DNA of 37,585 nucleotides from Acidimicrobiales bacterium (GTDB taxonomy: Bacteria; Actinomycetota; Acidimicrobiia; Acidimicrobiales; Aldehydirespiratoraceae): the NCBI GenBank assembly GCA_029263175.1, contig JAJCXZ010000011.1, forward strand, positions 1 through 37,585. Direction: 5' to 3'. Of this stretch, positions 15,545 to 37,585 are shown one piece after another. The notes under the pieces were generated by a model. The model was not told the origin of the DNA, ran no database searches, and worked only from the letters and a program-made list of their open reading frames with translations. A program made the translations under genes and the position numbers. The stretch's first letter is position 1, and every line of letters starts with the position of its first letter.

Positions 15545-16423
15545 ATGACCGCTCAACACTCATCGTTTCTCTCCTCTGCGGATGGGACGAAGATCGCGAC
15601 ATACGCCTGGACGGACGTGATCGGAACCCCGCGAGGTGCCGTTCAGATCGCTCACGGGCTCGGTGAGCATGCCGGTCGCTACTCGCGCTTCGCGACAGCC
15701 CTCAATACAGCCGGCTACCTCGTGTTCGCCACCGATCACCGTGGCCATGGTCGTACGAGCAGCCAATCCCTCGGCGATTTCGGCGCCCCGGGATTCATGG
15801 GGCTGATAGCCGATGTCGCCCAGTACGGAGCCCAGATCGCGGATGGGCATTCGGGGGTCCCCTTGTTCCTCTTCGGTCACTCGATGGGATCGTTTGCCGC
15901 GCAGGCCGTCATCATCGACCACTCCCGGCTCTACGCCGGAGTCGTGCTGTCAGGGTCGTCCGCTCTCGATGTCCTCGCCGCGAGTGTGGCCGATGCCGCC
16001 GGCCCCGGTGGGCTCGAGGCCTTCAACGCCGGTTTCGACCACCGAACCGGCTACGAGTGGCTGTCCCGCGACGAGACCGAAGTTGACATCTACGTGGCCG
16101 ACGAATGGTGCGGTTTCGACCTCGTCCCGGAATCCGCTCCGACCCTGTTCGAGCCCGCCGGCCGTCTGGCTGACCCCGGCCTTCTCGGCTGCATACGCAA
16201 CGATCTACCGATCCTCGTCGCGTCAGGGAGCGCCGACCCGCTCGCGGCCGATGGGCAACTCGTGCAACTCCTCGGGCAGCGCTATCGCGACGCGGGGATC
16301 ACCGACGTCACTGTCACCGTCTACCGCGGGGCCCGCCACGAAATCCTCAACGAGACCAACCGCGACGAAGTCACCGCCCAGATCGTCGGCTGGCTCTCTC
16401 GATCAGCGCTCGCAAACCAATGA
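15545..16423 (+). CDS. Alpha/beta hydrolase, monoacylglycerol-lipase-like
   Basis: 292 residues, serine aminopeptidase S33/monoglyceride lipase type. VQIAHGLGEHAGRYSRFA is the oxyanion and early-motif region of the family, DHRGHGRTS follows, FGHSMGS holds nucleophile Ser113, ASGSADPLA the Asp and GARHEILNE the His. No signal peptide, so cytosolic. The family cleaves monoacylglycerols or other carboxylic esters. Its stop overlaps the creatinase start as ATGA, so the two are translated together. An ester or lysolipid carrying creatine, or simply a shared regulon, could explain the pairing; neither is shown. Confidence 0.85.
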   Translation: MTAQHSSFLSSADGTKIATYAWTDVIGTPRGAVQIAHGLGEHAGRYSRFATALNTAGYLVFATDHRGHGRTSSQSLGDFGAPGFMGLIADVAQYGAQIADGHSGVPLFLFGHSMGSFAAQAVIIDHSRLYAGVVLSGSSALDVLAASVADAAGPGGLEAFNAGFDHRTGYEWLSRDETEVDIYVADEWCGFDLVPESAPTLFEPAGRLADPGLLGCIRNDLPILVASGSADPLAADGQLVQLLGQRYRDAGITDVTVTVYRGARHEILNETNRDEVTAQIVGWLSRSALANQ

Positions 16424-20182: not shown

Positions 20183-21394
20183 TCACCCCGGAGCGGCGCT
20201 CTCGATCGCCGCGCTCAGATTCGCGGCGTTGGTCGCGTCGCGCCGTTCGAGAGCGCTGATGAGAGTGTCGTCAATGCCCACCGACTCGAGGACCTCGCGA
20301 GTGTCGTCACCGATGAAGGGCGCATGTCGGCGCGGAAAGGGAGCATCAACAAATGTGACGGGTGGTCGAGGAAAGCGCATCTTCCCGAGGCTCGGGTGCT
20401 CCGTCTCGATGAGGGAGCCGGCGTGTCGAATCTGCTCGTCCTCATGCAGATCATCGAGGGTGTTCACCCGCGCGACAGGGACACCGAATACGTCGAGCAT
20501 GTCGCAGATCTCAGCCGTCGTGACATCTGCAATCATGGCCTCGATCTCAGCGTTGAACTCCTCAGCGCGGCTGAGTCGAGCCGGTAGTGTCGAATAGCGC
20601 TCATCGAGGTGCAGTTCGCTTCCGCGCCAGATCGAGAGAAGCTCCAGCGAGTCATCCGAGACGAGGACGATAGCGACGTAGCCGTCCTTGGCGCGAAAGA
20701 TCGGGAAGTAGTCGGCCAGCTCACCCTGATGCTGGATGTCGTCGCCCAGGAGAGTGCGAGACCACATCATGTCGGGCCACATGTAGTACAGAGCCGAGTC
20801 GAGCATCGAGACAGGGAGATACCGACCCTCGCCCGTCTTACCCCGTTCGAGTAGGGCTGCGGTGATAGCGTTGGCCGCGGTGAGGGCGGTGACCTTGTCG
20901 TAAACGATCGCTCGCATGTTTTTCGGGACTTCACCACCTTGTTCCGCCGCGGTCCCGGCAGTTGCCTGGATCAGCGGATCGAATACTCGACGGTTCTGAT
21001 ACGGACCGTCCTGTCCGTACCCGGAGATCGACGCAAAGACCAATCGTGGATTGAGCGCTGAAAGGGTCTGGTAGTCGATGCCGAGACTCTGAACGACGCC
21101 TGGCCGATAGTTCTCGATGAGCACGTCGGCGGTCTCGACGAGAGCGAGGAACACGTTCTTCTCGGCCTCGACCTTCAGATCGAGAGCAACCGACCGCTTG
21201 TTGCGGTTGAGCACGGCGAACATGGCGCCCATCCCTCCGCGGATGCTGCCCAGGTAGCGAGCAGTATCCCCGAACACCGGCGGCTCGATCTTGATGACAT
21301 CTGCACCTTGGTCAGCCAGAACCATTGCAGCCATCGGTCCCGAGACTGTCGAGGTCAGTTCAAGCACGCGGTAGCCGCTCAGCGGACCGGTCAT
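20183..21394 (-). CDS. CaiB/BaiF class III CoA-transferase
   Basis: 403 residues. LSGYRVLELTSTVSGPMAAMVLADQGADVIKIEPP is the family N-terminal fold, LNRNKRSVALDLK and LIENYRPGVVQSLGIDYQTL follow, and RVFDPLIQATAGT carries the probable catalytic Asp139. The small lid domain spans about 215-330. These enzymes move CoA between acyl groups (carnitine, oxalate, bile acids, aromatic acids). ATG 21394 follows GGGGAG by 8 bases. It diverges from a CntA/GbcA-like Rieske oxygenase across 92 bases. Carnitine or another quaternary-ammonium acid is a reasonable but unproven substrate. Confidence 0.88.
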   Translation of the reverse strand: MTGPLSGYRVLELTSTVSGPMAAMVLADQGADVIKIEPPVFGDTARYLGSIRGGMGAMFAVLNRNKRSVALDLKVEAEKNVFLALVETADVLIENYRPGVVQSLGIDYQTLSALNPRLVFASISGYGQDGPYQNRRVFDPLIQATAGTAAEQGGEVPKNMRAIVYDKVTALTAANAITAALLERGKTGEGRYLPVSMLDSALYYMWPDMMWSRTLLGDDIQHQGELADYFPIFRAKDGYVAIVLVSDDSLELLSIWRGSELHLDERYSTLPARLSRAEEFNAEIEAMIADVTTAEICDMLDVFGVPVARVNTLDDLHEDEQIRHAGSLIETEHPSLGKMRFPRPPVTFVDAPFPRRHAPFIGDDTREVLESVGIDDTLISALERRDATNAANLSAAIESAAPG

Positions 21395-21425
21395 CAGATG
21401 ATCTCCCCGTGTCGTGTCGTCGTGA

Positions 21426-21448
21426 CACTAGTGATCGCCGACCATCAC
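21426..21448. promoter_or_regulatory. Clustered inverted repeats between divergent genes
   Basis: CACTAGTG (21426-21433) is palindromic. GTGAT (21431-21435) and ATCAC (21444-21448) form a second inverted repeat with an 8-base spacer. They lie midway between the two divergent starts and could be operators. Short enough that chance is possible. Confidence 0.3.
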
Positions 21449-21474
21449 GGCCCAGCGCTGCGCAGTGTGCCACC

Positions 21475-21480
21475 TACGAT
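21475..21480 (+). promoter_or_regulatory. -10 box of a leaderless promoter
   Basis: TACGAT, 6 bases before ATG 21487 of the Rieske gene. No Shine-Dalgarno and no -35 consensus. Confidence 0.5.
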
Positions 21481-21486
21481 CGCGCG

Positions 21487-22611
21487 ATGACGAGCATCCA
21501 TGTACGCCCCGACAGGACGGCCGATCGTTTCGACGCTGACCCGATCAAGTCATTCACCATGCCCGCTTCGCTCTATACCGACCCAGCGGTCGCCGAGCGT
21601 GAGCGTGATGTGTTCTTCGCCGACAGCTGGCAGTGGGTTGGGCACGCATCCGACGTCGCCGATCCGGGCGCCTACTTCACGACCTCCATTGCTGACGAGC
21701 GCATCTTCGTCATCCGCGACACCGCAGGCGAGCTGCGAGCGTTCTACAACGTGTGCCTCCACCGCGGCCACTCCCTGCTGAAGGGCTCCGGGACGCTGAA
21801 CGGCCTGATCACGTGCCCTTACCACGCGTGGGTCTACGAGAGCAGCGGCGACCTGAAGGGTGCCCGACTGTCGGATCGCATGCCCGACTTCGACGTCGAG
21901 GACTATCGCCTGGTGGATCTGGCGGTCGAGGAGTTCTGCGGGTTCGTCTTCGTCCACCTCGGGGCTACGCCCGAACCGATGGACGCCTGCTACCCCGGGC
22001 TACGAGACGCGGTTGCGGTCGCGCATGGCGATCCTGCCTCACTCTCGCTGGCGCGCGAGACGTTCTTCGACATCGCGGGCAACTGGAAGAACGTCGGCGA
22101 CAACCTGCTCGAGTGCTACCACTGCCACCCGAGCCACAAGGATTTCGTCGACCTCATCGACATGTCCGGCTACCGCAACGAGACGTTCGAACGCTGGTCG
22201 ATCCAGACGGGCCCGGGCCGCGCGGACAATGACGTGTACGCGGTCACGTCGGGTGCGCCCGGCTTCACGTCCGCCTTTGTCTGGCCCAACGTCTCGATCG
22301 GTCAGCTACCTGGCCACCGTGGCCTCCTGATCTTCCACTTCATACCCACCGGAGCCGAGACCACGCGCCAGCGGCTCGCCTACTACTCCCCCGACGGCGA
22401 CGTCACCGATGAAGAAGAGGCCGCGTTCGACTACTTCAACAACGTGCTCGGACCCGAAGACGTGGCGCTGGTGGAGGACGTGCAGATCGGGCTCCGGTCG
22501 CGGGGCTACCACCAGGGGAAGTTCATCTGTATCCCGAACCGTCCTGAGATTTCCGAGCACGCGGTCCATCACTTTCACTCCATGGTGCTCGAAGCACTGG
22601 CGACCGACTGA
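21487..22611 (+). CDS. Rieske oxygenase alpha subunit, CntA/GbcA/YeaW-like
   Basis: 374 residues. Rieske cluster: NVCLHRGHSLLKGSG (Cys90, His92) and CPYHAW (Cys110, His113). Mononuclear iron: NWKNVGDNLLECYHCHPSH with His212 and His217, and Glu209 at the bridging position where most ring hydroxylases have Asp. Glu there is the mark of carnitine oxygenase CntA and relatives. The C-terminus (LGPEDVALVEDVQIGLRSRGY, then ISEHAVHHFH) also follows CntA/GbcA. The group oxidises quaternary ammonium compounds such as carnitine, gamma-butyrobetaine and glycine betaine. ATG 21487 is leaderless-type; the longer frame upstream overlaps the CoA-transferase and is rejected. No reductase partner is in the window. 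Confidence 0.87.
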   Translation: MTSIHVRPDRTADRFDADPIKSFTMPASLYTDPAVAERERDVFFADSWQWVGHASDVADPGAYFTTSIADERIFVIRDTAGELRAFYNVCLHRGHSLLKGSGTLNGLITCPYHAWVYESSGDLKGARLSDRMPDFDVEDYRLVDLAVEEFCGFVFVHLGATPEPMDACYPGLRDAVAVAHGDPASLSLARETFFDIAGNWKNVGDNLLECYHCHPSHKDFVDLIDMSGYRNETFERWSIQTGPGRADNDVYAVTSGAPGFTSAFVWPNVSIGQLPGHRGLLIFHFIPTGAETTRQRLAYYSPDGDVTDEEEAAFDYFNNVLGPEDVALVEDVQIGLRSRGYHQGKFICIPNRPEISEHAVHHFHSMVLEALATD

Positions 22612-26079: not shown

Positions 26080-27240
26080 CTAGCCGAGCTTCGGCTTGAC
26101 GTCTTCGGCGAAGCGACTGAGCTGTTCCTCGTACTTGTCGTAGGTGTCTCCCAAACAGATCGGGAAGATGGCGAGGTTCTTGGCTCCGAGCACGTCGATG
26201 TCGTGAGCCATCTGCTCGGCTACTTCGTCGGCGGTACCGACAAGGAAGATTCGTTGGTCCATTCCGTCCTCGAGCGTTGGGATCCAGTCCGTCGATGCCG
26301 GCTTCCCGTCGGGCCCTTTGAAGCCGACTTGCCTTCCGTAGGGTCCGAGGAACTTCCAGTGTTCGTCGAAGCATGGTCGGGCGTCGGCCACCGCCTGTTC
26401 GTGCGTGTCGGCAATGCGGACGTTCACCACCTTCATTCGCTGGTCGCCCGCATCGAGCACGGCTCCGTGTTCGTCCTCCCAGACCGAGGCGAACTCCTCC
26501 CACATCCCCTTCATGAAGTCCAGGTGGACATTCCACCAGACACCGCCGTAGCGCCGTCGGGCCACGAGTTCAACGGTCTTCGGCGAAGTGATCGTCTGCC
26601 AGCGTTCGTATGGCAACAGTGGTCGAGGTGTCAACGTGAGTTGCTCGACCGTGCCACCCCGATCAGGTATCCCGGCCGGCGGAAGGTCGTAGTGCTTGCC
26701 GTGGTACGAGAATCGCTCGTTGTCGAGAGCGAGTTCGATGACATCCATCGCCTCGGCGAACTTCGCGCGACTGTCGGTGTCCTGTTGGGCTCTCGTCGCC
26801 GGATCATCAGTGCTGCCGACGATTGCCCCGAGCGGCATCGCCTCGCGAGGCACGGTGCCCCTGCCAACGGCCAGGACGCCGCGACCATGCGAGAAGTTGT
26901 GCATTGTGGAGAAATCCTCGGCAAACCTCAGCGGATGCCATTGAGGGACGACATGACACAACGCGCCGATCTTGATCGATTCGGTCCGCTCGGCCAGTAC
27001 CGCACCAGCCATGAGCGCGTTGGGGATCACTTCGTAGCCCTCGTGCATGAAGTGATGCTCGGTGAAGAAGAAGTAGTCGTAGCCCAAGCGTTCCGCCTCG
27101 ACGCCGGCGTCCAGGATCTGCTGCGTCGTCTCCCAGACCAGTTCGTTCGACGCTCGACGATCGACGGGGCGCGGTGGACCAGCGCCGGCATCAGGCATCG
27201 GCACGGCGCAGAGAAGGAATGCTCCGTATTGCATGGTCAT
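26080..27240 (-). CDS. LLM-class flavin monooxygenase (bacterial luciferase family, FMN type)
   Basis: 386 residues, TIM-barrel luciferase-like. MTMQYGAFLLCAVP opens the barrel. FFTEHHFMHEGYEVIPNALMAGAVLAERTESIKIGALCHVVPQ contains the family His pair and substrate/FMN strand, and DFSTMHNFSHGRGVLAVGRG the phosphate-binding turn. KFAEAMDVIELAL and the last helices are also typical. Relatives use reduced FMN supplied by a separate reductase to oxidise alkanals, sulfonates or aminocarboxylates. ATG 27240 is chosen over a long upstream extension because AGAGG lies about 7 bases before it and homology begins there. Divergent from the PYROXD2-like gene. Confidence 0.85.
   Translation of the reverse strand: MTMQYGAFLLCAVPMPDAGAGPPRPVDRRASNELVWETTQQILDAGVEAERLGYDYFFFTEHHFMHEGYEVIPNALMAGAVLAERTESIKIGALCHVVPQWHPLRFAEDFSTMHNFSHGRGVLAVGRGTVPREAMPLGAIVGSTDDPATRAQQDTDSRAKFAEAMDVIELALDNERFSYHGKHYDLPPAGIPDRGGTVEQLTLTPRPLLPYERWQTITSPKTVELVARRRYGGVWWNVHLDFMKGMWEEFASVWEDEHGAVLDAGDQRMKVVNVRIADTHEQAVADARPCFDEHWKFLGPYGRQVGFKGPDGKPASTDWIPTLEDGMDQRIFLVGTADEVAEQMAHDIDVLGAKNLAIFPICLGDTYDKYEEQLSRFAEDVKPKLG
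26082..26096. terminator. Hairpin at a convergent junction
   Basis: AGCCGA-GCT-TCGGCT, a perfect 6-bp stem. It spans the LLM stop and final codons, 16 bases after the flavoprotein stop. No U-tract. Confidence 0.35.
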
Positions 27241-27318
27241 GCTCGAACCTCTCATTGGGGTCGCTCGGCGTCCAATCCTTAGCGGCACCCCGACAAACCG
27301 TCCAGCGAGTGGGTTCGC

Positions 27319-27324
27319 TAGGGT
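27319..27324 (+). promoter_or_regulatory. -10 box of a leaderless promoter
   Basis: TAGGGT, 6 bases before GTG 27331. No Shine-Dalgarno. It supports GTG as the start of the PYROXD2-like gene. Confidence 0.5.
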
Positions 27325-27330
27325 CGGGCT

Positions 27331-28947
27331 GTGCCAGATGTGATCGTGGTCGGAGCAGGACACAATGGCCTCATATGTGCGGCGTATCTCGCTCGCGCCG
27401 GGATCGAAACCGAGCTGATCGAGGCTCGGTCCGAGGTCGGTGGGTGTGCCTCGACTGTCGCTGACCTCGGCGCCCGCTTCAACATCTGCAACTGCGACCA
27501 CACCCTCATCCGCGGCATGCCGGTGATCGACGAACTCGAGCTGGAGTCGTTCGGACTCCGATACCTGGAACCTGAGGCCAGCGGAATCAACCTCTTCCAC
27601 GATGGGTCCGACCCATGGGTCTTCTTTCACGAGTCGGAACGAACACTCGATTCGTTGGCCATGTCACATCCGGGCCAGGTTGCCGGCTACGAGCGTTACC
27701 TGCGCGATGCCCTGCCCGTGGCCCAACTGGTGCTCGACATGGCGCGGACGGCACCCGGTGCTCTCAGGATGGTCTCCCAGGCGTTGTCTCGTCGGGCAAA
27801 GGGTGCAGCCCGACTCCTCGATTGGAGCCGACGGAGCGTCAACGATGTGTTTTCGGACTACTTCGACGACTGGCACCTCACCATGCCCGCCATATCCACC
27901 GGGCCGACGGTCTGGGGGATGCCCCCGTCCGCACCCGGCACTGGTCTCGCCGCGGTTACCTACGCCAGCCGTCACCTCATCAGGAGCGGCCGTCCGGAAG
28001 GCGGCAGCGGGGCACTCACTGATGCGACTCGAGATTCCTTCGAGGCAGCTGGAGGTCGAGTCCGGTGCGGGGCCCGTGTCGATCGGCTCATGCTGCGCGA
28101 CGGTCGAGCGGTCGGAGTTCGCCTCGATGATGGCACTGAGCTCACGGCCCGGGCCGTCGTGGCGGCGTGCGACCCCCATCGAGTCTTCGTGGACTGGCTC
28201 GACGAAGTCCCGCCGCCGGCCCGACGTTTCGTAGAGAGATGGCAGGCACGGTCGGTGAAGGATGGCTACGAGTCGAAGCTCGACGGGGTGATCGCCGCGC
28301 TTCCGCGCTATCGCGCCCGTGGCCAACTGAGCGAACGTTTCCCCGGACTCGACATTCTGGAACCCACCGTCACCGTGTCGCCCAGCCCGGACGCACTGGC
28401 TGCCGCGCACGCAGATCGTAAGCTGGGGAAGGTCTCGACCGAACCGACGATGCTCGTCAACGTGCCCTCGGTGCTCGATTCGACGATGCTCACCGCCGAA
28501 GGCAACCACATTCTGAGCCTGGAGGTGCTCTACACGCCCTATGCGCTAGCGGGCGGCTGGCCGAACTCCTCGGAGCCCGAGCGATGGCTCGAGATCTGGT
28601 CGCAATTCCTCGAGCCGGGCATCATCGACGCCATCGTCGCGCAGCGGGCGATGACTCCCGATCGCTACGAGGCAGAGTTCTCGATGCACCGAGGCCACAC
28701 ACCCTCCTACGGCGGCTCCCCGCTTGCAGCCCTCCTGGGAAACCAGCGAGCGCTCACGCGATATCGCTCACCCATCGCGGGTCTCTACCTCTCGGGGGCA
28801 GGGACATTCCCGGGCGCAGGGGTCTTCGGCGCGGCGGGTCGCAACACCGCCGACGTGGTGCGCCGCGACTTCCAGAGTCGACTTGGCCACCGTTTCACAT
28901 CGCTCCAGCACCGAGCCGCAGGCGTTGCGATGGGGGTTCCGACGTGA
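27331..28947 (+). CDS. Phytoene-dehydrogenase-like (PYROXD2-type) FAD oxidoreductase
   Basis: 538 residues. N-terminal dinucleotide site VIVVGAGHNGLICAAYLARAGIETELIEAR (GxGxxG, Glu at strand end), then VGGCASTV, then a long substrate domain. The C-terminal FAD contact is GLYLSGAGTFPGAGVFGAAGRNTADVV. It belongs to the CrtI-related flavoproteins. Many bacterial members are not carotenoid enzymes, and no other carotenoid gene is near, so phytoene is not the expected substrate. The start GTG 27331 is leaderless-type. Its stop overlaps the GTG of the F420-type LLM gene (GTGA), so the two are coupled and probably act on one pathway. Confidence 0.8.
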   Translation: MPDVIVVGAGHNGLICAAYLARAGIETELIEARSEVGGCASTVADLGARFNICNCDHTLIRGMPVIDELELESFGLRYLEPEASGINLFHDGSDPWVFFHESERTLDSLAMSHPGQVAGYERYLRDALPVAQLVLDMARTAPGALRMVSQALSRRAKGAARLLDWSRRSVNDVFSDYFDDWHLTMPAISTGPTVWGMPPSAPGTGLAAVTYASRHLIRSGRPEGGSGALTDATRDSFEAAGGRVRCGARVDRLMLRDGRAVGVRLDDGTELTARAVVAACDPHRVFVDWLDEVPPPARRFVERWQARSVKDGYESKLDGVIAALPRYRARGQLSERFPGLDILEPTVTVSPSPDALAAAHADRKLGKVSTEPTMLVNVPSVLDSTMLTAEGNHILSLEVLYTPYALAGGWPNSSEPERWLEIWSQFLEPGIIDAIVAQRAMTPDRYEAEFSMHRGHTPSYGGSPLAALLGNQRALTRYRSPIAGLYLSGAGTFPGAGVFGAAGRNTADVVRRDFQSRLGHRFTSLQHRAAGVAMGVPT

Positions 28948-29909
28948 CGCTCCCCCTTTCCGTCGCCCTCATGCCAGGGGCACCCATCCCTGACATCGTC
29001 GACCTCGCCGTGTTGGCCGAAGATCTGGGAATGGCGCGCTGCTGGGTCTACGACGAGGGACTGGTCACCCGCGACGTCTACGTCACCCTCACTGCGATCG
29101 CCGCTCGGACCACGCGGATACCGCTCGGTCCTGGCATCACCAACCCGTTCGTGCGTCACCCTGGTGCAACCGCCGCCGCAATCGCCTCACTCGACGAGTT
29201 CAGCGGAGGCCGCGCCTTCGTCGGGCTGGGTGCCGGAGGGGGTCTCACCCTCGACCCGCTGGCGATCAAACGAGCCCGTCCGGTCACGGCCGTGGCGGAC
29301 ATGATCGAGTGCCTTCGGCACTTGTTCGCCGGCGACCGCGTCGACCACGACGGGCACACCTTCTCGTTTCAAAACGCGAAGCTCGAGTACGCCAGACCCG
29401 ATATCGACATCATCGTGGCCGGGCGCGGACCGAAAATGACGGCACTGGGAGGCCAACGGGCCGACGGGTTCAATCTGAGCTACATCCACAAGGATCTCCT
29501 GGGCACCCACGCTCGTTCTCTTCGGCAGGCCAGCGGCGACCGCCCGTTTCGGATCACCTACTCGACAATGATCGCCATCACCGACGCTGAGCAGGAGGCC
29601 GCCCGCGCCCAACTCACCTTTCGTCTCGTCGACTCGCCTCCGGAGGTGAAGGACATGATCGCTATGACGCCGTCCGATGTGGCGAATATCCGCTCCGCTC
29701 TTGCCGAGGGAGGCCCACGGGCCGCAGCGCGTCATGTCAACCCTGATTGGGTCTCCGCGTTCATCATCTCGGGTACGGCCGAGGATTGTGCTGCTGAACT
29801 GACCACCCTCATGGCCGCCAACGACATCGACGAGTTCCAACTGCCGGTGCTCGACACCGAAGGAGCGGCCGCATTCATCGAACGCGCGGCGGAGATGTTT
29901 TCGCCCTAG
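28944..29909 (+). CDS. LLM-class oxidoreductase, F420-dependent reductase-like
   Basis: 321 residues, TIM-barrel. LPLSVALMPGAPIPDIVDLAVLAEDLGMARCWVYDEGLVTRDVYVTLTAIA opens the barrel, PLGPGITNPFVRHPGATAAAIASLDEFSGGRAFVGLGAGG is the methylene-tetrahydromethanopterin-reductase-like core, and IIVAGRGPKMTALGGQRADGFNL binds the deazaflavin phosphate region. F420 rather than FMN is inferred from similarity to that group. GTG 28944 overlaps the preceding stop (GTGA). A long upstream extension in the same frame overlaps the previous gene and is rejected. A hydride-transfer step after the PYROXD2-like oxidation is likely. Confidence 0.82.
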   Translation: MTLPLSVALMPGAPIPDIVDLAVLAEDLGMARCWVYDEGLVTRDVYVTLTAIAARTTRIPLGPGITNPFVRHPGATAAAIASLDEFSGGRAFVGLGAGGGLTLDPLAIKRARPVTAVADMIECLRHLFAGDRVDHDGHTFSFQNAKLEYARPDIDIIVAGRGPKMTALGGQRADGFNLSYIHKDLLGTHARSLRQASGDRPFRITYSTMIAITDAEQEAARAQLTFRLVDSPPEVKDMIAMTPSDVANIRSALAEGGPRAAARHVNPDWVSAFIISGTAEDCAAELTTLMAANDIDEFQLPVLDTEGAAAFIERAAEMFSP

Positions 29910-29913
29910 GAGT

Positions 29914-30477
29914 TCAGCCCCCATGCCAGCGGTCGAGACCATCGACCTCGACCCCGAGGTGCTCGAGGGCGCGCCCAACGGAATGGCTCACAACATCATC
30001 GAGCGTTTCCGGCTTGTTGTAGAAGGCCGGGACCGGTGGGAACATCACCGCTCCGATCTCCACAGCCTGCTGCATCAACCGGAGATGACCCAGATGAAAC
30101 GGTGTCTCACGAACCATCAGCACCAAAGGCCGGCGCTCCTTGAGCGTGACATCAGCGGTACGACTGATCAGATCCGCCGACAGTGAGTTCGCAATGGCTG
30201 ACAACGACTTGATCGAACAGGGTGCGACCAGCATGCCCGCGGTGCGAAATGAGCCACTGCTCGTCGGGGCGGCGATGTCACGCGAACTGTGGACGTGGTC
30301 GGCCAGCGCCTCGACGTCTGCCACCGACCTGTCGGTCTCCACCGTGAGCGTGGTTTTTGCGGGGCCGGACATGATCAGATGCGTCTCGACATCGGTGAAG
30401 GAGGCCAGAAGCTCCAGCGCACGAATGCCGTAGACAGAGCCGCTGGCCCCAGTGATGGCGACGACGATGCGACGCAT
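29914..30477 (-). CDS. ubiX: UbiX flavin prenyltransferase
   Basis: 187 residues. It makes prenylated FMN, the cofactor of UbiD decarboxylases. VVAITGASGSVYGIRALELL binds FMN phosphate. SSGSFRTAGMLVAPCSIKSLSAIANSLSADLISRTADVTLKERRPLVLMVRETPFHLGHLRLM is the diagnostic block. PPVPAFYNKPETLDDVVSH closes it. The start is set by TGATG coupling with ubiD, and the pairing with ubiD fits the shared cofactor. Length is typical. An in-frame upstream extension lies wholly inside ubiD and is rejected. Confidence 0.93.
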   Translation of the reverse strand: MRRIVVAITGASGSVYGIRALELLASFTDVETHLIMSGPAKTTLTVETDRSVADVEALADHVHSSRDIAAPTSSGSFRTAGMLVAPCSIKSLSAIANSLSADLISRTADVTLKERRPLVLMVRETPFHLGHLRLMQQAVEIGAVMFPPVPAFYNKPETLDDVVSHSVGRALEHLGVEVDGLDRWHGG

Positions 30478-31820
30478 CAGTGAAGGTACGGCGCGAGATC
30501 GACCGGCGGATAGGACACTCGATCGCCGTATTCGCGTCTCTCGCGCTTGTAGGTCGCGTCGATTCCGACCTTCGTACTGATGCCGCGCTGATCCGCGGTG
30601 GGATCCATCTCGTGGCCCTGGGCATGAGTAGCGACGAACACGTCGTCGGTCCAGTGCACGCGGTTGGTGAGGGCCCACTGGATCTCAGACGGTTCATACA
30701 TGTCGACATCTCGGTCGATCACGATCACGTTGCGGATGTTGATGTGGGCCGCCATCGCGGCCATCGCGAGGTTCTTCGGGGTACCGGGATTGTCGCGATC
30801 GATCTGGATGATCGCCATGAAACCATTTCCGTAGGGCGGGATGTGGACGTCGGCCGTGCTGTCGAGATGGCGAACGAACCGTCGCAACAGTGGCTCGCGG
30901 GGCAAGACGTTGCCGATGTAGATGTGTTCGTACCAACCGGGAATGATCGTCTGGTATATCGGATCGTTGCGCCACGAGATACAGGTGACTTCGAAAGTCG
31001 GGCTGTTCCACTCCTCGCCGTGATAGCCGTGAAACTCCGCCAGCGGACCCTCCAGTGCCCGTACCGTCGGGTGGAGCAGTCCCTCGACGACGATCTCGGC
31101 CGCCGCCGGAATATCGACATCGATCGTCCGGCCCCTGCAAACCTCGATTCCCTTGCCCCGGATGGCGCCGGCGATGAAGAGTTCGTCGACCGGAGTCTTC
31201 ACCCCGCCGGCGATCATGAGCGCCGGGTCGAGTCCGATCGCCAACGCGACCGGAAACGGGGCGTCGGGTTCCTCGCGTGACTTCCAGAAGGTGCCCACAT
31301 CGCGCCATTCATTCACGTTGAAGCCGAATCGATTTGGCCCCATCCGCAACATCCGGTTGTAGCCCAGGTTGCCTCGGCCCGTGATCGGATCCTTCGCCAC
31401 CGTGAGTGCGCCGGTGATGAACGCCCCGCCGTCGCCACGACTGTGAGTCGGGATCGGCAGCATCGCAGTGTCGAGTTGATCGCCTTCCACATGATTGTCG
31501 TGCCAGGCTGCGCCCTCCACTCGCACCGGTGCCACGCCATTGGCCGGGTCGAGGACACGTTCCATGACGTCGATGATTTCGTGGCTCTCGCAGCCGAGAG
31601 CCACCGCGGCCCGTCGATGGGACGTGACACTGCCGCAGAAGATGGGCCATGGACTGTCGACGACATTCTCGAACATGCCGGCCCCGACATCATTGCGAGC
31701 CAACGACGCCGCGACATCAGCCAACTCGTGGACGAGTGACACCGGTTGAGCCACTCGAGCGAGTTGGCCGGCAGCCTCGAGTGCGGTGATGTAGCTCCGC
31801 AGATCATGGATCTCGGTCAT
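30477..31820 (-). CDS. ubiD: UbiD-family prenyl-FMN decarboxylase
   Basis: 447 residues. These enzymes reversibly remove carboxyl groups from aromatic, heteroaromatic or alpha,beta-unsaturated acids using prenylated FMN. The catalytic triad is visible: Arg156 in NLGYNRMLRM, Glu257 and Glu262 in ALEGPLAEFHGYHGEEW, with the same five-residue spacing as in Fdc1. IPTHSRGDGGAFITGALTVAKDPITG is the metal/phosphate site. FGNV-type C-terminal helices end IDATYKRERREYGDRV. Substrate unknown. No menaquinone or ubiquinone gene is adjacent, so a catabolic role is more likely. ATG 31820 has GGAG 9 bases upstream and TAGACT 30 bases upstream. Confidence 0.92.
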   Translation of the reverse strand: MTEIHDLRSYITALEAAGQLARVAQPVSLVHELADVAASLARNDVGAGMFENVVDSPWPIFCGSVTSHRRAAVALGCESHEIIDVMERVLDPANGVAPVRVEGAAWHDNHVEGDQLDTAMLPIPTHSRGDGGAFITGALTVAKDPITGRGNLGYNRMLRMGPNRFGFNVNEWRDVGTFWKSREEPDAPFPVALAIGLDPALMIAGGVKTPVDELFIAGAIRGKGIEVCRGRTIDVDIPAAAEIVVEGLLHPTVRALEGPLAEFHGYHGEEWNSPTFEVTCISWRNDPIYQTIIPGWYEHIYIGNVLPREPLLRRFVRHLDSTADVHIPPYGNGFMAIIQIDRDNPGTPKNLAMAAMAAHINIRNVIVIDRDVDMYEPSEIQWALTNRVHWTDDVFVATHAQGHEMDPTADQRGISTKVGIDATYKRERREYGDRVSYPPVDLAPYLH

Positions 31821-32004: not shown

Positions 32005-32952
32005 ATGGGCCGTCTGATCACCACGCCACCGATAATCGACATATCGCCGCTACAGGTCGATCCTCACAGTCCGAGGTCGGCCGGCGCGGTTGCGGCCATG
32101 CACGCGGCATGTCTCGACACCGGTTTCTTCGTGATCATCAACCACGGACTGGACGCCGAGATCACATCATTGTTCGACGCGGCGCGAGGCTTTTTCGCTC
32201 TCCCGGCCGAATCCAAGGAACGCACGCCCCGAGTCGACCGCTACGGCTATGTCCCTCACCGAGATACTGCCATCGACCAAAGCCGTGCGAGTGACAACGT
32301 CGAGTATCTCGATCTCGGGCTCGGAGACGAGGTGAAACTCCCTGCCCTGGCCGGGTTCGAATCGGCTGTTCGTGCGTATCAGCCCGCTGCCATCGTCGTG
32401 GCAGCGACCATTCTGAGCGCCCTCGCCACCGCCCTCGACGCTCCACCCGCCTACTTCGCGAGCCGGATGACGAATCCTCAGTGTCGACTCCGGCTGCTGC
32501 ACTACCCCGAGGTCGAGCCGGATGCCGGCGGATCACTCCCTGTGCCCAATAGGCCTCATACCGACTACGGATTGATCACCCTTCTCGCCACCGATGGTGT
32601 CCCCGGTCTGGAGGTCAAGGCGATCGGTGCCGGCTGGACTCCCATCACAGCCCCCAACGGCAGCCTGATCGTCAACCTCGGGGACATGCTTGCTCGATGG
32701 ACCAACGATCTCTATCGGTCGACCCCCCACCGGGTGGTGGGCCCCGCCACCGGTGACCGGGTGTCGATCCCGTTCTTCATCAATCCGAGTCCCCTCACGG
32801 TCGTCGACTGTCTCCCATCCTGTGTCGGTGACGAGGATCGCCCGCGATACGAACCGACGACGGCCGCAGAATTCCTCGCCTCGCGGATCGACAGCACCAC
32901 CGAGCCCTACATCGACCCCGATGAGGGGCCCAGTCGCAGAAGGATCTCATGA
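32005..32952 (+). CDS. Isopenicillin-N-synthase-family Fe(II)/2-oxoglutarate oxygenase
   Basis: 315 residues. PPIIDISPL is the typical opening, FFVIINHGLD the DIOX_N domain. RPHTDYGLITLLATDGVPGLEV gives His185 and Asp187, STPHRVVG gives His242, and DRVSIPFFINPSP gives Arg252 to hold 2-oxoglutarate. The family includes gibberellin and flavonoid oxygenases, ethylene-forming enzyme, and thymine-7-hydroxylase-like nucleobase oxidases. GGAG lies 5 bases before ATG. First gene of a four-gene operon with ATGA overlaps throughout; the following CodA-like genes make a nucleobase-like or other N-heterocyclic substrate attractive, by inference only. Confidence 0.88.
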   Translation: MGRLITTPPIIDISPLQVDPHSPRSAGAVAAMHAACLDTGFFVIINHGLDAEITSLFDAARGFFALPAESKERTPRVDRYGYVPHRDTAIDQSRASDNVEYLDLGLGDEVKLPALAGFESAVRAYQPAAIVVAATILSALATALDAPPAYFASRMTNPQCRLRLLHYPEVEPDAGGSLPVPNRPHTDYGLITLLATDGVPGLEVKAIGAGWTPITAPNGSLIVNLGDMLARWTNDLYRSTPHRVVGPATGDRVSIPFFINPSPLTVVDCLPSCVGDEDRPRYEPTTAAEFLASRIDSTTEPYIDPDEGPSRRRIS

Positions 32953-34181
32953 CGCGCACCTGGATCACTGGTGGTCGACTGCCCACGGGACGAATCGTCG
33001 ATATCGCGGCCGTCGGCGGAGTCATCGAGTCGGTGGACGACCATGACCCGGCGCGCGAGGAGGGTGATGACCTCCATGAGTGGTTGCTCCTCCCCCCGAT
33101 GACCGAACCGCACGCCCATCTCGACAAGGTGCTCACCGCCGAGGCGGTGCAGAACCCGACCGGTGACCTGGAGGGGGCCGTCGACGCCTGGAGCGCCGCT
33201 GCCGCGGCCGGTCGATTCACCGCGGAGGACGTGATCGAGCGAGCCACCACTGCGATCGAACTCCTGCTGGCCAGCGGTGTGACTGCCGTTCGTACCCACG
33301 TGAACACCACACCGGAAGTGGGAGCCACCAACGTCCGCGCACTGCAGAAGGTGAGGGAAGCCTTCGTCGGTCTGGTGGACCTGCAGATCGTGGCCCTAAC
33401 CCGTGGCCCGATGGTGGGGCCCGGATCCGCCCCCGACCAGAAGGCTCTCGCCGCGGCCGTCGCGGCCGGCGCCGATGTGGTCGGGGGATGCCCGCATCTC
33501 GCGGAGAGAGCCACCGAGTCGGTCACCTATGCCTTCGAGGTCGCAGCCGAAGCGGGGCTCGCCATCGACCTGCACACCGACGAGACCCTCGACCCATCCG
33601 TGCTCACAATCCTCGACATGGTCGAGCAGGTTCACACAACCGGGTTCAGTGGTCTGGTGAGCGCCAGCCATTGTGTGAGCCTCGGAGCGCAGAGTCTCGA
33701 TGCCCAACAACGAATCGCCGAGAGAATCGCGACGGCGGGAATCGCCATTCTTCCTCAACCCCAGACCAATCTCTATCTCCAGGGCCGGGATCACCGTACG
33801 GCGACCCCGAGGGGGCTCACGGCCATACGTTCGCTCGTCGAGGCTGGTGTCCTTGTCGCGGCCGGCGCCGACAATGTCCAGGACCCGTACAACCTCGTGG
33901 GCCGATCCGACCCTTTGGAAACAGCAGCCCTACTGGTGATGGCGGGCCATGTGCTGCCCGACGATGCGTATGCGATGGTGAGCAACAACGGTCGCAAGGC
34001 GCTCGGACTCGCTCCTGTCAACTTCCGCGCCGGGGATCCGGCCGACTTCGTCGCGGTCGATGCTCCGTCCATTCGCGGCGCGATCGCCGACGCCCCGCGA
34101 TCGCGTCGTGTCTACCGGGCCGGCCGACTCGTGGCCTCCTCGGATCAGCAGATGTCCGTTCATCGGAGGGCAGACACATGA
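32949..34181 (+). CDS. CodA-like amidohydrolase, copy 1
   Basis: 410 residues, cytosine-deaminase branch of the amidohydrolase superfamily. Metal and catalytic residues match E. coli CodA in spacing: EPHAHLDK (His55, His57), DLHTDE (His209, Glu212), SASHC (His241), AGADNVQDPYN (Asp308). The intervals 32 and 67 between His209, His241 and Asp308 equal those between CodA His214, His246 and Asp313. Substrate contacts differ: the FPQEG loop with Gln156 becomes LTRGP, DDVFDPW becomes DNVQDPY. So a hydrolase or deaminase of a ring or amide nitrogen is expected, but probably not of cytosine. Related AtzC-type enzymes act on triazines. ATGA overlaps on both sides. Confidence 0.87.
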   Translation: MTRTWITGGRLPTGRIVDIAAVGGVIESVDDHDPAREEGDDLHEWLLLPPMTEPHAHLDKVLTAEAVQNPTGDLEGAVDAWSAAAAAGRFTAEDVIERATTAIELLLASGVTAVRTHVNTTPEVGATNVRALQKVREAFVGLVDLQIVALTRGPMVGPGSAPDQKALAAAVAAGADVVGGCPHLAERATESVTYAFEVAAEAGLAIDLHTDETLDPSVLTILDMVEQVHTTGFSGLVSASHCVSLGAQSLDAQQRIAERIATAGIAILPQPQTNLYLQGRDHRTATPRGLTAIRSLVEAGVLVAAGADNVQDPYNLVGRSDPLETAALLVMAGHVLPDDAYAMVSNNGRKALGLAPVNFRAGDPADFVAVDAPSIRGAIADAPRSRRVYRAGRLVASSDQQMSVHRRADT

Positions 34182-35422
34182 CCAGGTTCCTGCGCAACGC
34201 CCGACTTGTCGACGGGCGCACGGTCGACGTTCGAATCGAAGACGGGATGATCACCAGCGTGGGACCAGGCCTGGTCCACGAGACCGAGGGTGCCGACATC
34301 GAGGATCTTCGAGGCTGGCTACTGCTCCCGGCCATGGCCGAACCCCACGCTCACCTCGACAAGGCTCTGACCGCTGAGGACGTTCCCAATCCTCAGGGGG
34401 ATCTCCGCGGCGCCATCGAGGCGTGGATCGCCGCGGCCGAGGCCGGGATGTTCACCCACGAGAACACGGTCGAACGGGCCGCCTCAGCCATGGAGTTGCT
34501 GTTGGTCCATGGCGTCACCGCGGTGCGAACCCACGTCAACGTCCTGGCCAGCAACGGAACGAAGAGTCTCCGCGCCGTCAAGGAGGCAGCCACACGTTTC
34601 GGCGGCCTGCTCGACGTGCAGACAGTGGCTCTCACCAGCAGCCCGATGACCGGGCCGGACGGTGCTGCAAACCGAGCCGCGCTCGACGCTGCCGTGGAAG
34701 AGGGCATCGACCTCGTCGGTGGTTGCCCCCATCTCGACCCCGATGGGTCAGGCCTCATTCGCCACGCGCTCTCGGTGGCAACCGATGCCGGCATCGGCGT
34801 CGACTTGCATGTCGACGAGATGCTCGACCCCGATGTGCTCACCCTCCGCGACCTCGCCCGCCAGGTCATCGACACCGGTTTCAGTGGTTCGGTGGCGGCC
34901 GGCCACTGCGTGACCCTCGGGATGCAATCCCGATCCGTGCAACTCGAGGTGGCCTCGCTCGTCGCGGAGGCAGGCATTGCCGTCTTCCCCCTCCCCCAAA
35001 CAAATCTGTTTCTGCAAGGCCGCCATCACCCGACCGCCACACCGCGAGGACTCACCGCCATCGCCGCCCTGCAGGAGAGCGGTGCGCTGGTGGCGGCAGG
35101 CGCCGACAACGTGCAAGATCCCTTCAATCTGGTGGGACGATCCGATCCACTGGAGACGGCCGCGCTGATGGTGATGGCCGGCCACCAACTCCCGGAGGTC
35201 GCGTTCGACATGGTGAGCAACAATGTGCGAAGGGCGATCGGACTGCCCGAGGTTCGGATAGAACCCGGCGACCCGGCCGACCTCGTCGCCATCGATGCTC
35301 CATCGATCAGGGGGGCGATAGCCGATGCACCGATGTCTCGTCGCGTCTTTCGAGGCGGCGTACTCGTCGCATCCGCTGACCAACAATCCGCAATCCACCG
35401 CACCGGGGAACACGAATCATGA
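34178..35422 (+). CDS. CodA-like amidohydrolase, copy 2
   Basis: 414 residues, a tandem paralogue of the preceding gene, with long shared stretches such as LTAIxxLxExGxLVAAGADN, NLVGRSDPLETAAL and DAPSIRGAIADAP. Metal/catalytic set: EPHAHLDK (His57, His59), DLHVDE (His211, Glu214), AAGHC (His243), AGADNVQDPF (Asp310). The substrate loop reads LTSSP instead of LTRGP, so the two copies may form a mixed oligomer or take successive or different substrates. GGAGGG sits 7 bases before ATG 34178, which overlaps the previous stop. The end overlaps the QueD-like gene (ATGA). Confidence 0.87.
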   Translation: MTRFLRNARLVDGRTVDVRIEDGMITSVGPGLVHETEGADIEDLRGWLLLPAMAEPHAHLDKALTAEDVPNPQGDLRGAIEAWIAAAEAGMFTHENTVERAASAMELLLVHGVTAVRTHVNVLASNGTKSLRAVKEAATRFGGLLDVQTVALTSSPMTGPDGAANRAALDAAVEEGIDLVGGCPHLDPDGSGLIRHALSVATDAGIGVDLHVDEMLDPDVLTLRDLARQVIDTGFSGSVAAGHCVTLGMQSRSVQLEVASLVAEAGIAVFPLPQTNLFLQGRHHPTATPRGLTAIAALQESGALVAAGADNVQDPFNLVGRSDPLETAALMVMAGHQLPEVAFDMVSNNVRRAIGLPEVRIEPGDPADLVAIDAPSIRGAIADAPMSRRVFRGGVLVASADQQSAIHRTGEHES

Positions 35423-35793
35423 AACTGACCATCACAGCCGCCATCCACGCCCGGTGGGGTCACCGAGTGGACGGCCTCATTCACACCCACGCCTGGACAG
35501 TGGAGGCGACGCTCACCGGTCCGGCTGACTGCGACAAGGTCTTCCCTGCCGACGATCTGGAGCGGATCCTGCTCGAAGTCGTCGAACCGTGGCACGGCCA
35601 CTACCTCACCAATGAGGATGTGGGCGAGTGGAAGAGCTACAAGCCCCTCGTCTGGGATCGTGAGCCGACGGTCGAGGAGATCGTCCGACGGCTATGGGAC
35701 CAGTTGCACAGCCGTGTGCCGCAACTCACCGAGGTCGCCCTCGTGGAAGCCACCGAGTTCGATCGCTGCCGCACGGTTCGCCTCGCCGCCTGA
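35419..35793 (+). CDS. QueD/6-pyruvoyltetrahydropterin-synthase-like protein lacking the catalytic Cys
   Basis: 124 residues, T-fold. HARWGHRVDGLIHTHAWTVEATLTG supplies zinc-type histidines (His10 or His15, His22, His24). WHGHYLTNE corresponds to the family's catalytic His region, and PTVEEIVRRLWDQL to the substrate-anchoring Glu. Authentic QueD and PTPS have a catalytic Cys a few residues before the HGH; here the stretch reads GHRVDGLIHTH and has no Cys. It therefore should not be annotated as queuosine or biopterin synthesis. No QueC, QueE or FolE lies nearby. Last gene of the operon, coupled by ATGA. It may act on or bind a pterin-like ring. Confidence 0.78.
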   Translation: MKLTITAAIHARWGHRVDGLIHTHAWTVEATLTGPADCDKVFPADDLERILLEVVEPWHGHYLTNEDVGEWKSYKPLVWDREPTVEEIVRRLWDQLHSRVPQLTEVALVEATEFDRCRTVRLAA

Positions 35794-35801
35794 ATGCGTC
35801 G

Positions 35802-36167
35802 CTACTGCGGGACAACGACCTCGAACAAGGTGATCGTCCAGCCGTCGGGGCCGTCGACGACGAAACTCTTGTGTCCCCATGGTTTCATCGTCGGCTCGCC
35901 GTGGGCGGTGCCGCCGCGGGCGCAGATGCGGGCGTGTTCCGCGTCGGCATCGCCGACTTCCCATGCAAGGGCCGCACCGGTCACTCCCGGCAGGCTGGCA
36001 CTGGTTTCCGCCGCGAAGACCTCGATCTGGCCGTCGGCCGCGAGAAGGATGGTTCCCTTGCCTCCGTCCTCGAACGACCGCAGGACCTCGAGGCCCATGG
36101 TTTCCACGAAGAAGGCAACGGTGCCGTCGTAGTCGGCGGCGGTGAAGACCACCCGGAACTCACCCAT
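35802..36167 (-). CDS. VOC (glyoxalase/bleomycin-resistance fold) protein
   Basis: 121 residues, two beta-alpha-beta-beta-beta modules. MGEFRVVFTAADYDGTVAFFVETMGLEVLRSFEDGGKGTILLAADGQIEVFAAE is module one; VGDADAEHARICARGG and KSFVVDGPDGWTITLFE module two. The usual first metal His is absent (FRVVF), so it may not bind a metal in the standard way. ATG 36167 is chosen because GGAG lies 9 bases before it. It overlaps the Rieske gene upstream by 8 bases, so they are coupled. It could shield or bind a small product of the oxygenase. Confidence 0.75.
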   Translation of the reverse strand: MGEFRVVFTAADYDGTVAFFVETMGLEVLRSFEDGGKGTILLAADGQIEVFAAETSASLPGVTGAALAWEVGDADAEHARICARGGTAHGEPTMKPWGHKSFVVDGPDGWTITLFEVVVPQ

Positions 36168-37407
36168 TCGAATCATCTCCAGTCGTCGCGAGGGTGGCAC
36201 CCATCGGCAGCCGGCTGACGTCGGTCTCGGCGCCGACGATGTAGTTGCCGGCCACGACGCTGACAAGGGCCTTGTCCTCGTCGAACTCGACACCCACCGG
36301 ATCGCCGCCCGCAGCCACGATCTGCACCTGCTCTTTGAATTGGCGGCGCACCATCGACACACCGCGATCGGTCGACGACAGCCTCTCTTCGGTGTGGCGG
36401 GTGATCGCACCCTGGCCGACCTGTGCCTCGTAGTCACCCGGGAAGCGTTGATGCTCCTCGGCGGTCAGTTCGAACCAGGTCTTGTCGCCTCCGTACACCG
36501 GGAGGCCCTGAGGTTCGCGATCCCGCGGCTTGCGCACCATTGCGAACACTCGGGTGTGGGTGTCGTCGATCGGCTGGGTCCACGACATGTTGTTGGTCTT
36601 GCCCAGGACAGTGAGTGTAGGGGTGGCGATCACCCGCACTGTCGGCATCCTCACCTCGGTGATGCGGTGAAGCGTGGTGCCGTCGGGCAGCTGTCGATCT
36701 TGCGAGGACGTGACGCCCCACGGATGGACCTGCCAGTCGATGGCCGGCCAAATCTCCAGGTTGGAGTTGAACTGCACGCCACTGTGCGTCGTGTGGAGAA
36801 TGAACACGTGATAGGGGTCCATCGCATTCTCGTGAGTCTGGAACCAGTTGCACGGAGCTTCCGTCGGCCCACCGAACGCGAAGTGGTCGATGATGACGAT
36901 CTCTTCTTCGTCCTCGTCGAGGTCCTCGAAGATGTCGTAGCGAGGGAACACAGGCTGCCTCTCGGCGGGCCCGAGGTAGGCAAAGATCATGCCGTTGTAC
37001 TCCACGACGGGGTACCAGGGCTGTCGATAGCGCTCCTTGTTACGACCGCGATCGGGCTCGCACGGCTGATCGAGGCAGGTGCCGTCGGCTCCGAAGAGCC
37101 AGCCGTGGTACGGGCAGCGGATCCCGTCATCCTCGACGCCGCCGAAGAACAAGGTGGTACCTCGATGACAGCATCGCGGTTCGAGCAACCCTGGTGTGCC
37201 CGACATGTCGCGGTAGAGGATCAGATCCTCACCCAGCAGGCGCACCTCACGGGGAAGGCTCGTGGCCTCCTCGGAGCGACCCACCGGATGCCAATACCGG
37301 CGAAGCAACTCGCCTGACGGGGTACCCGCCCCGACCTCGACCAGTTCAGGATCCCACGTACCGGCAACCCTGCCGTACGCCCGTCCGTCGCCTTCCACTA
37401 CTGCCAT
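36160..37407 (-). CDS. Rieske non-heme iron oxygenase, alpha subunit (phthalate/vanillate-type)
   Basis: 415 residues. RYWHPVGRSEE and VRLLGEDLILYRDMSG open the Rieske domain; CCHRGTTLFFGG (Cys79, His81) and CPYHGWLF (Cys98, His101) bind the cluster. NAMDPYHVFILH (Asp197, His200, His205) is the mononuclear iron site, here with the usual Asp bridge, unlike the Glu of the oxygenase at 21487. It fits the ring-hydroxylating/demethylating group of phthalate dioxygenase and vanillate O-demethylase. The strong GAGGAGG sits 7 bases before ATG 37407. No ferredoxin reductase in view. A terminator separates it from the gene upstream. Substrate unknown. Confidence 0.87.
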   Translation of the reverse strand: MAVVEGDGRAYGRVAGTWDPELVEVGAGTPSGELLRRYWHPVGRSEEATSLPREVRLLGEDLILYRDMSGTPGLLEPRCCHRGTTLFFGGVEDDGIRCPYHGWLFGADGTCLDQPCEPDRGRNKERYRQPWYPVVEYNGMIFAYLGPAERQPVFPRYDIFEDLDEDEEEIVIIDHFAFGGPTEAPCNWFQTHENAMDPYHVFILHTTHSGVQFNSNLEIWPAIDWQVHPWGVTSSQDRQLPDGTTLHRITEVRMPTVRVIATPTLTVLGKTNNMSWTQPIDDTHTRVFAMVRKPRDREPQGLPVYGGDKTWFELTAEEHQRFPGDYEAQVGQGAITRHTEERLSSTDRGVSMVRRQFKEQVQIVAAGGDPVGVEFDEDKALVSVVAGNYIVGAETDVSRLPMGATLATTGDDSNG

Positions 37408-37483: not shown

Positions 37484-37585
37484 TCAGAAGCCGATGGAGT
37501 CGTCGATGTATTCGTTGGTGAAGATGTCGGCCGGAGTGATTCCCTCTGGGAACTCCATCTCCGCGGCAGCCAACTGATCGATGAC
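37484..37585 (-). CDS. C-terminal fragment, possible ABC solute-binding protein
   Basis: Only the last 33 residues are in the window (VIDQLAAAEMEFPEGITPAD, then IFTNEYIDDSIGF and the stop). The short helix followed by a P-x-G-x-x-P loop and a TNEYIDDSI tail looks like the end of an NMT1/THI5- or SsuA-type periplasmic binding protein, but too little is visible to be sure. It lies upstream of the Rieske gene on the same strand, behind a strong terminator. If correct, it would capture a substrate for the oxygenase genes. Confidence 0.35.
   Translation of the reverse strand, partial: VIDQLAAAEMEFPEGITPADIFTNEYIDDSIGF

Follow-up and report, generated by a model that had tools for sequence, protein, structure and literature searches.

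The DNA analysed here, called the window, is the whole 37,585-nt stretch of contig JAJCXZ010000011.1 (C11) from an Acidimicrobiales bacterium (assembly GCA_029263175.1). Its list of open reading frames (ORFs) contained an overlapping run of four genes on the forward strand at 32005-35793, in the order OXY-AHA-AHB-PTPS:

32005..32952, + strand: OXY, a 2-oxoglutarate (2OG)-Fe(II) oxygenase with a thymine-7-hydroxylase (T7H)-like pocket (PF03171/PF14226, PDB match, pocket residues, linkage)
32949..34181, + strand: AHA, a CodA-like amidohydrolase (Amidohydro_3/_1, metal and Glu residues, tree position)
34178..35422, + strand: AHB, a second CodA-like amidohydrolase (Amidohydro_3/_1, metal and Glu residues, tree position)
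35419..35793, + strand: a PTPS/QueD-fold protein without the catalytic Cys (Pfam PTPS, AlphaFold2 model, 24-sequence alignment)

As a preliminary description of this DNA had reported, ATGA overlaps were present at all three junctions (32949, 34178, and 35419), which suggests that the four proteins are produced jointly. The AHB gene is nested in a longer ORF opening at 33488. Pfam searches matched OXY to 2OG-FeII_Oxy (72.6 bits) and DIOX_N, both amidohydrolases to Amidohydro_3/_1, and the last protein to PTPS (38.4 bits, cut-off 22.4). Codon-position G+C was gene-like for OXY, AHA, and PTPS by a filter that antisense ORFs also pass, and all four genes were called by a codon-usage caller that was trained partly on them; the start it called for OXY is later than the relatives support.

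Recurrence of the cluster was checked in 24 fetched loci (loci are numbered with L and genomes with G). L069, from the metagenome-assembled genome BH8, carries all four genes in identical order, each junction being a 4-base overlap (GTGA, ATGA, and ATGA). In L070, the order was kept with looser junctions and with one LLM-class gene inserted ahead of the PTPS-like gene; elsewhere, parts of the run recurred in other combinations. The arrangement is therefore real and extends beyond this genome, but exact copies are few (1 of the 24, plus L070 with its insertion). The idea that the four genes form a conserved unit was not borne out; they represent an uncommon grouping drawn from a larger modular pool of genes for uptake and breakdown, which is found in one bacterial class.

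Compared with PDB sequences, OXY matched the thymine dioxygenase 5c3p (E 4.2e-27) as its fourth-best hit. When residues were numbered as in the T7H paper PMC4787775 (PDB chain minus two, set on the HTD motif), Arg190, Tyr217, Phe292, and Asn294 of T7H were present in all eight OXY sequences, as was the Fe triad, and the Glu122 position was occupied by Asp in all eight. Phe292 and Tyr217 are critical in T7H according to that paper. Orthologues of OXY (at least 55% identity; 55-59% found) were detected in 5 of 390 genomes of the class, each within about 3 kb of an amidohydrolase gene; this and the other class-wide counts below include the window's own genome. The next tier, at 38-44% identity, comprised eight genomes, with the gene beside an amidohydrolase relative in G043 and not in the other seven.

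AHA and AHB are 60% identical to each other. The CodA-type metal site and catalytic Glu (HxH, H, E, H, and D) were conserved in all 36 aligned relatives, proteins outside 330-480 amino acids having been dropped before this count. The position of CodA Gln156, presumably a substrate-binding residue, was Ser in AHB (alignment to 1k6w) and variable across the family, and an Asn follows the metal Asp in both proteins. No curated cytosine-deaminase cut-off was reached, the best score being 220.1 bits for AHB with NF005759 (cut-off 403). The label "CodA-like" given earlier is thus appropriate for the fold and the metal site and fails for Gln156 and the curated cut-offs. In the tree, AHA clustered with the amidohydrolases of L036 and L037, which adjoin OXY and Rieske genes (support 0.907), and AHB with those of L032 and L033, which adjoin UbiD, and of L034, a locus without UbiD (support 0.911). 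By this tree the two stem from two lineages; a recent tandem duplication was rejected, each being placed with different neighbours. Relatives of AHB on plasmids were all below 60% identity (about 34% for the five matches listed), and a mobile origin was rejected.

The AlphaFold2 model of the PTPS-like protein (predicted local distance difference test, pLDDT, 90.2) was aligned by VIA-align with PTPS 2dj6 at Z 14.2 (root-mean-square deviation 1.9 over 107) and with QueD 4ntm at Z 13.6. The equivalent of QueD Glu110, together with His15, His22, and His24, was found in 24 of 24 sequences (22 of the 24 scan loci, L074 and L077 being omitted, plus the window and L054). No Cys occurred at the positions aligned to Cys27 of QueD, which we take to be its catalytic cysteine; a tight hairpin lies at that site, and the positions of the Asp-His dyad, presumably also catalytic, read H-G in the window and varied elsewhere. 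The term "Cys-less" used earlier fits the catalytic-Cys stretch and not the whole protein, which retains C38 and C117, neither of them conserved across the 24 sequences. The score with the QueD equivalog TIGR03367 was 22.6 bits against a cut-off of 89.25, and a QueD role was rejected on the residues and this score. Since a single PF01242 match, this gene, was found per genome in 5 of 5 genomes tested, the protein does not stand beside a normal QueD in those genomes. Relatives have so far come from Acidimicrobiia or loosely labelled Actinomycetota records only; the locus scan relied on a pair of short peptide patterns derived from five sequences and may therefore miss distant relatives. None was found in viral contigs or plasmids, and a mobile origin was rejected here also. 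When the PTPS and binding-protein alignments were searched as profiles against PDB sequences, no match was obtained. Close homologues of each gene in unrelated characterised pathways would, by the preliminary description, speak against it; for AHB, PTPS, and OXY, compared with solved structures, homology was remote.

The genes flanking the cluster and belonging to the larger set were as follows:

26080..27630, - strand: LLM4 family, LLM-class protein, start uncertain, as called overlapping the FAD gene (family in 14/21 amidohydrolase loci)
27331..28947, + strand: FADox family, FAD-dependent amine-oxidase/CrtO-like protein (Pfam Amino_oxidase 52.6 bits)
28944..29909, + strand: LLM12, LLM-class (F420-type) oxidoreductase (best curated match methylene-H4MPT reductase, below cut-off)
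29914..30525, - strand: UbiX flavin prenyltransferase, start codon uncertain (NF004685 250.4 bits, cut-off 188; same place in L069 and L070)
30477..31820, - strand: UbiD-family decarboxylase, prenylated-FMN type (TIGR00148 268.5 bits, cut-off 244.85)
35802..36179, - strand: VOC/glyoxalase-like protein (Pfam Glyoxalase 43 bits)
36160..37407, - strand: Rieske oxygenase (Pfam Rieske)
37484..37585, - strand: ThiY-like ABC (ATP-binding cassette) substrate-binding protein, C-terminal end only, cut by the contig end (translation; C11 ends at 37585)

UbiD and UbiX diverge from the four genes, and the VOC and Rieske genes converge on them. The UbiD score was below every substrate-specific curated cut-off compared. 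LLM12 was next to UbiD or UbiX also in L032, L033, L041, L069, and L070. The FAD and LLM12 genes overlap by GTGA in the window, and the FAD-LLM pair of L069 by a 4-base ATGA; the window FAD protein is 79% identical to the gene product at the same place in L069. This FAD gene was missed by the codon-usage caller, and the antisense ORF there was scanned in the neighbour comparison instead. For the VOC protein, the corresponding position in L069 has a 75% partial match, and a 36% match occurs in L039. Rieske relatives of 69-89% identity were located just downstream of PTPS in L069, L070, L075, L083, L088, and L090, and a Rieske gene was beside OXY and amidohydrolase genes in L036 and L037.

The order LLM-UbiX-UbiD-OXY-AHA-AHB-PTPS-Rieske was retained in L069 and, with inserted genes, in L070. 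On its single contig, L070 reads LLM, UbiX, Fe-dependent alcohol dehydrogenase, class-III aminotransferase, UbiD, OXY, AHA, AHB, LLM, PTPS, and Rieske, followed by binding protein, permease, ATPase, ABM, and LLM4. The alcohol dehydrogenase and aminotransferase inserted between UbiX and UbiD would fit oxidation of a CH2OH or CH2NH2 group.

Contig C34 of the window's genome opens with the same binding-protein stretch on which C11 ends, followed by permease, ATPase, an ABM protein, and two LLM proteins. The ORF at the C34 start (L093:2-1441) joins this C-terminus in frame to a new N-terminal part. This suggests that the assembly merged tandem copies of the binding-protein gene at the break between C11 and C34. 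The binding-protein model (pLDDT 87.6) aligned best with thiamin-bound 4nmy (Z 27.7) and formylaminopyrimidine-binding 3ix1 (Z 27.3), next with Thi5 (Z 23.9) and 3qsl (ligand not named; Z 22.6), and with bicarbonate-, nitrate-, sulfonate-, and taurine-binding proteins at Z 20.3 or below. The protein had no Pfam match at E 0.001 and no PDB sequence match at E 1. The PTPS gene comes immediately after ATPase, permease, and binding-protein genes in L082, L084, and L086.

Linkage was then counted across the class. Amidohydrolase matches at E≤1e-70 occurred in 40 of 395 genomes. The PTPS-like gene occurred in 5 of the 395, all among the 40, and was within 8 kb of the amidohydrolase gene in 3 of the 5; by hand calculation, chance would give this 5/5 co-occurrence with a probability near 1e-5 for independent genomes, an assumption that does not hold here. 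UbiD orthologues (at least 70% identity) were present in 4 of 355 genomes and lay within 10 kb of an amidohydrolase gene in the window's genome, G336, and G324. Neighbours at 21 amidohydrolase loci included ABC ATPase (17), permease (16), a creatininase family (15), FAD oxidase (14), LLM4 (14), and binding protein (14). At 21 PTPS loci of at least 10 kb, window included, they were ATPase (10), binding protein (9), amidohydrolase, Rieske, LLM4, and FAD oxidase (7 each), OXY (5), an XPRT-like family (5), PucD-type xanthine dehydrogenase (4), and UbiD (3). These partner counts are biased because the loci were fetched for amidohydrolase or PTPS genes, which does not apply to the genome-wide PTPS, OXY, and UbiD counts. 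The amidohydrolase set of the tally includes L038 and L048, the same places as L078 and L092; the neighbour-family comparison left out L038, L048, L057, and L061 as repeats of other loci. For four loci of 43-44% G+C (L073, L076, L077, and L080), gene calling gave nothing and tblastn was used for scanning. Seven comparison stretches (136,790 bases) gave a single partner match, the binding protein in L096, a stretch retrieved on account of that very protein; these stretches are not random, because several flank amidohydrolase or MCH (methenyl-H4MPT cyclohydrolase) loci.

Gene content, linkage, folds, and conserved residues are as given above, and from them we infer reactions, their order, and a substrate. 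The reading we favour, which falls somewhat short of being probable, is that the genes form a modular island for import and breakdown of a small pyrimidine-ring nitrogen compound bearing an oxidisable one-carbon side group. The ThiY-like ABC transporter would import the compound, and OXY would oxidise its methyl, hydroxymethyl, or formyl side group to a carboxylate, as T7H does. UbiD, with prenylated FMN from UbiX, might then release the carboxylate as CO2, as the counterpart of iso-orotate decarboxylase in the fungal thymine pathway. AHA and AHB would hydrolyse a ring C-N bond, either by deamination or by opening of a cyclic amide. The PTPS-fold protein may bind the ring through the conserved Glu and the three conserved His (a presumed metal site) and catalyse a reaction independent of the QueD cysteine, perhaps a ring isomerisation, while the Rieske, LLM, and FAD proteins would add oxygen toward ring opening. 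We would tentatively place a thiamin-type pyrimidine first and a pterin second as substrates. The former agrees with the binding protein, OXY, UbiD, and the alcohol dehydrogenase and aminotransferase of L070, and the latter with the T-fold and with the neighbouring xanthine dehydrogenase and XPRT-like genes. A thiamin-type aminopyrimidine is the single best guess, and as a single guess it is rather unlikely to be right. The class of explanation first proposed, in which an oxidisable pyrimidine-, pterin-, or deazapurine-like ring is salvaged or degraded, is still the best, given the T7H pocket residues and the thiamin/formylaminopyrimidine-binder fold.

Several observations weigh against this reading. 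The PTPS and amidohydrolase genes are about 50 kb apart in G366 and about 300 kb apart in G157, and the UbiD orthologue of G239 is on a different contig from the amidohydrolase gene. Seven of the 21 PTPS loci (L072, L073, L076, L079, L080, L081, and L087) had no partner, nor had L059, outside the tally, and L085 had an M20 hydrolase family only. Among the loci fetched for amidohydrolase or PTPS genes, OXY and UbiD were together in four (the window, L069, L070, and L042); UbiD was found without OXY in L032, L033, and L041, and OXY without UbiD in L036, L037, L078, and L086. With OXY and UbiD often apart, and the window's genome lacking a close PucD-type xanthine dehydrogenase, any single-pathway story is weakened. 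The position of T7H Asn87, which contacts thymine O2, was Asn in one of eight OXY sequences (L042), Asp in four including the window, Gly in two, and Gln in one. The ligand of the binding protein is only suggested, because the structural matches are at 15% identity. Rings resembling pterin or guanine are the usual ligands of a T-fold with a Glu anchor. Finally, in the T7H paper (PMC4787775), the N294A mutation is reported to leave activity unaffected, so the shared Asn294 is weak support.

The alternative that survives best, unlikely as it is, is breakdown of a pteridine such as a pterin or folate fragment. Deaminases would convert pterin to lumazine and molybdenum hydroxylases would oxidise it; the PTPS-fold protein would contract the ring to xanthine-8-carboxylate, from which UbiD would form xanthine for salvage or oxidation. 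Ring contraction of this kind is the old activity of tetrahydroxypteridine cycloisomerase. The PTPS fold with its invariant Glu110 equivalent fits such a route, as do the XPRT-like family, the PucD-type xanthine dehydrogenase, which passes its curated cut-off, and nearby deaminases of the 8-oxoguanine/5'-deoxyadenosine deaminase group. When two neighbouring deaminase-type amidohydrolases were compared with the PDB, the matches were a mixture of deaminases, chlorohydrolases, and unnamed amidohydrolases. However, the XPRT-like score was under its cut-off, the best PucD-type match in the window's genome was 40%, and UbiD and PucD-type xanthine dehydrogenase shared no locus of the partner tally (G372 has both on one contig, about 25 kb apart). 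A literature search for this pathway yielded nothing related.

A thymine/5-methylcytosine route is improbable. In it, a CodA-like enzyme would convert 5-methylcytosine to thymine, OXY would carry thymine to iso-orotate, and UbiD would yield uracil. The OXY pocket is close to that of T7H and the amidohydrolases are CodA-like, but Asn87 is kept in one of eight OXY sequences and the Gln156 position varies, and the PTPS, Rieske, and creatininase-family partners as well as the two amidohydrolase lineages would be left unexplained. Equally improbable is that unrelated catabolic genes simply lie near one another in metabolic islands rich in genes. The combinations do differ between loci, and a third of the PTPS loci counted stand without partners; against this, linkage was seen in the genome searches for PTPS, OXY, and UbiD, which did not select for neighbourhood, and the comparison stretches taken together gave one partner match. 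Breakdown of a 7-deazapurine (preQ1, queuine, or carboxydeazaguanine), with UbiD acting on a pyrrole-type carboxylate, is more doubtful still. The fold of the PTPS-like protein is nearest to those of PTPS and QueD, and UbiD enzymes for pyrrole-2- and indole-3-carboxylate are known; however, other queuosine-type genes did not turn up among the annotated neighbour families, where no dedicated search was made, and the binding protein looks like those that bind aminopyrimidines. The least probable reading, standard purine (urate) breakdown in which enzymes have been replaced, was rejected: the PucD-type family and a family-18 hydrolase passing the curated allantoate-amidohydrolase and carbamoylase cut-offs would suit it, but it offers no role for OXY or UbiD, and uricase (0/10), OHCU decarboxylase (0/15), and allantoinase over cut-off (0/15) were not found in the partner genomes.

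Returning to the favoured island for a pyrimidine-ring compound, its parts resemble known systems to different degrees. As in fungal thymidine salvage (T7H and iso-orotate decarboxylase), a 2OG oxygenase with a mostly matching pocket would be followed, in the model, by decarboxylation of a ring carboxylate; in contrast, the decarboxylase here is UbiD-type, Asn87 is mostly lost, and amidohydrolases, a T-fold protein, a Rieske protein, and a transporter are added. AHA and AHB share the fold family with E. coli CodA and with AtzC, and with CodA the HxH, His, Glu, and Asp of the metal site, whereas Gln156 and Asp314 (presumed numbering) are replaced, the cut-offs are unmet, and the pair comes from two lineages. 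With QueD and PTPS the T-fold protein shares the fold, Glu110, and the two His of HxH, but not the catalytic Cys or a conserved Asp-His dyad, and it scores far under the QueD cut-off. Among the ThiY formylaminopyrimidine- and thiamin-binding proteins of ABC transporters, 3ix1 and 4nmy are closest to the binding protein in fold, yet at about 15% identity and linked here to breakdown genes. UbiD and UbiX both pass the curated family cut-offs, as known pairs do, although UbiD stays under the substrate-specific ones.

No description of this gene set was found in the open-access literature, judging by titles and abstract openings. Because all of the families are known, what is claimed as new is their combination, in which the PTPS-fold protein is the one unusual component, rather than the type of system. 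It is possible, if on balance doubtful, that the set represents an undescribed bacterial route in which 2OG oxidation and prenylated-FMN decarboxylation remove the one-carbon side group of a vitamin-type ring, either the thiamin pyrimidine or a pterin, with the Cys-lacking PTPS-fold protein catalysing a reaction new to its fold, e.g. pteridine ring contraction. If so, it would show how the largely uncultured Acidimicrobiia recycle vitamin- or nucleobase-like rings, unite a 2OG oxygenase and a prenylated-FMN decarboxylase in one side-chain-removal route, and assign a function to a PTPS-fold clade without the catalytic cysteine of the family. The reading also yields a short list of substrates open to direct testing.

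MCH, encoded on contig C34, was considered as a link to pterin one-carbon chemistry and set aside. Matches over cut-off came from 5 of 395 genomes; in G324, G380, and G388 the MCH gene and the amidohydrolase matches are on separate contigs, and in G317 it is near an amidohydrolase fragment. MCH is possibly a recruited one-carbon enzyme. In the window's genome (G000), the gene (344 bits; L093:10594-11550) is beside E1 and lipoyl-domain dehydrogenase genes, and at the MCH loci L104-L107 an LLM12-like gene is within two genes.

Other gene groups were noted in and around these loci. PucD-type xanthine dehydrogenase subunits, an XPRT-like gene, and an M50-peptidase-like gene were together in L064/L092 (one contig), L075, L078, and L091, with FAD oxidase and PTPS genes following. 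L066:2595-9222 carries a Fer2-fused molybdenum hydroxylase, XdhC-like and YqeB-type maturation genes, and an SsnA-like amidohydrolase, which together form another molybdenum-hydroxylase module close to the island. Elsewhere in the window, a CoA-transferase family III gene (-) adjoins a second Rieske ring-hydroxylating oxygenase gene (+) at 20183-22611. An AstE/AspA-type deacylase gene adjoins an M24 creatinase-type gene at 1-2113, a pair that we take to resemble DoeB/DoeA of ectoine degradation, and further M24 genes are located at 5294-6835 and 16420-17637.

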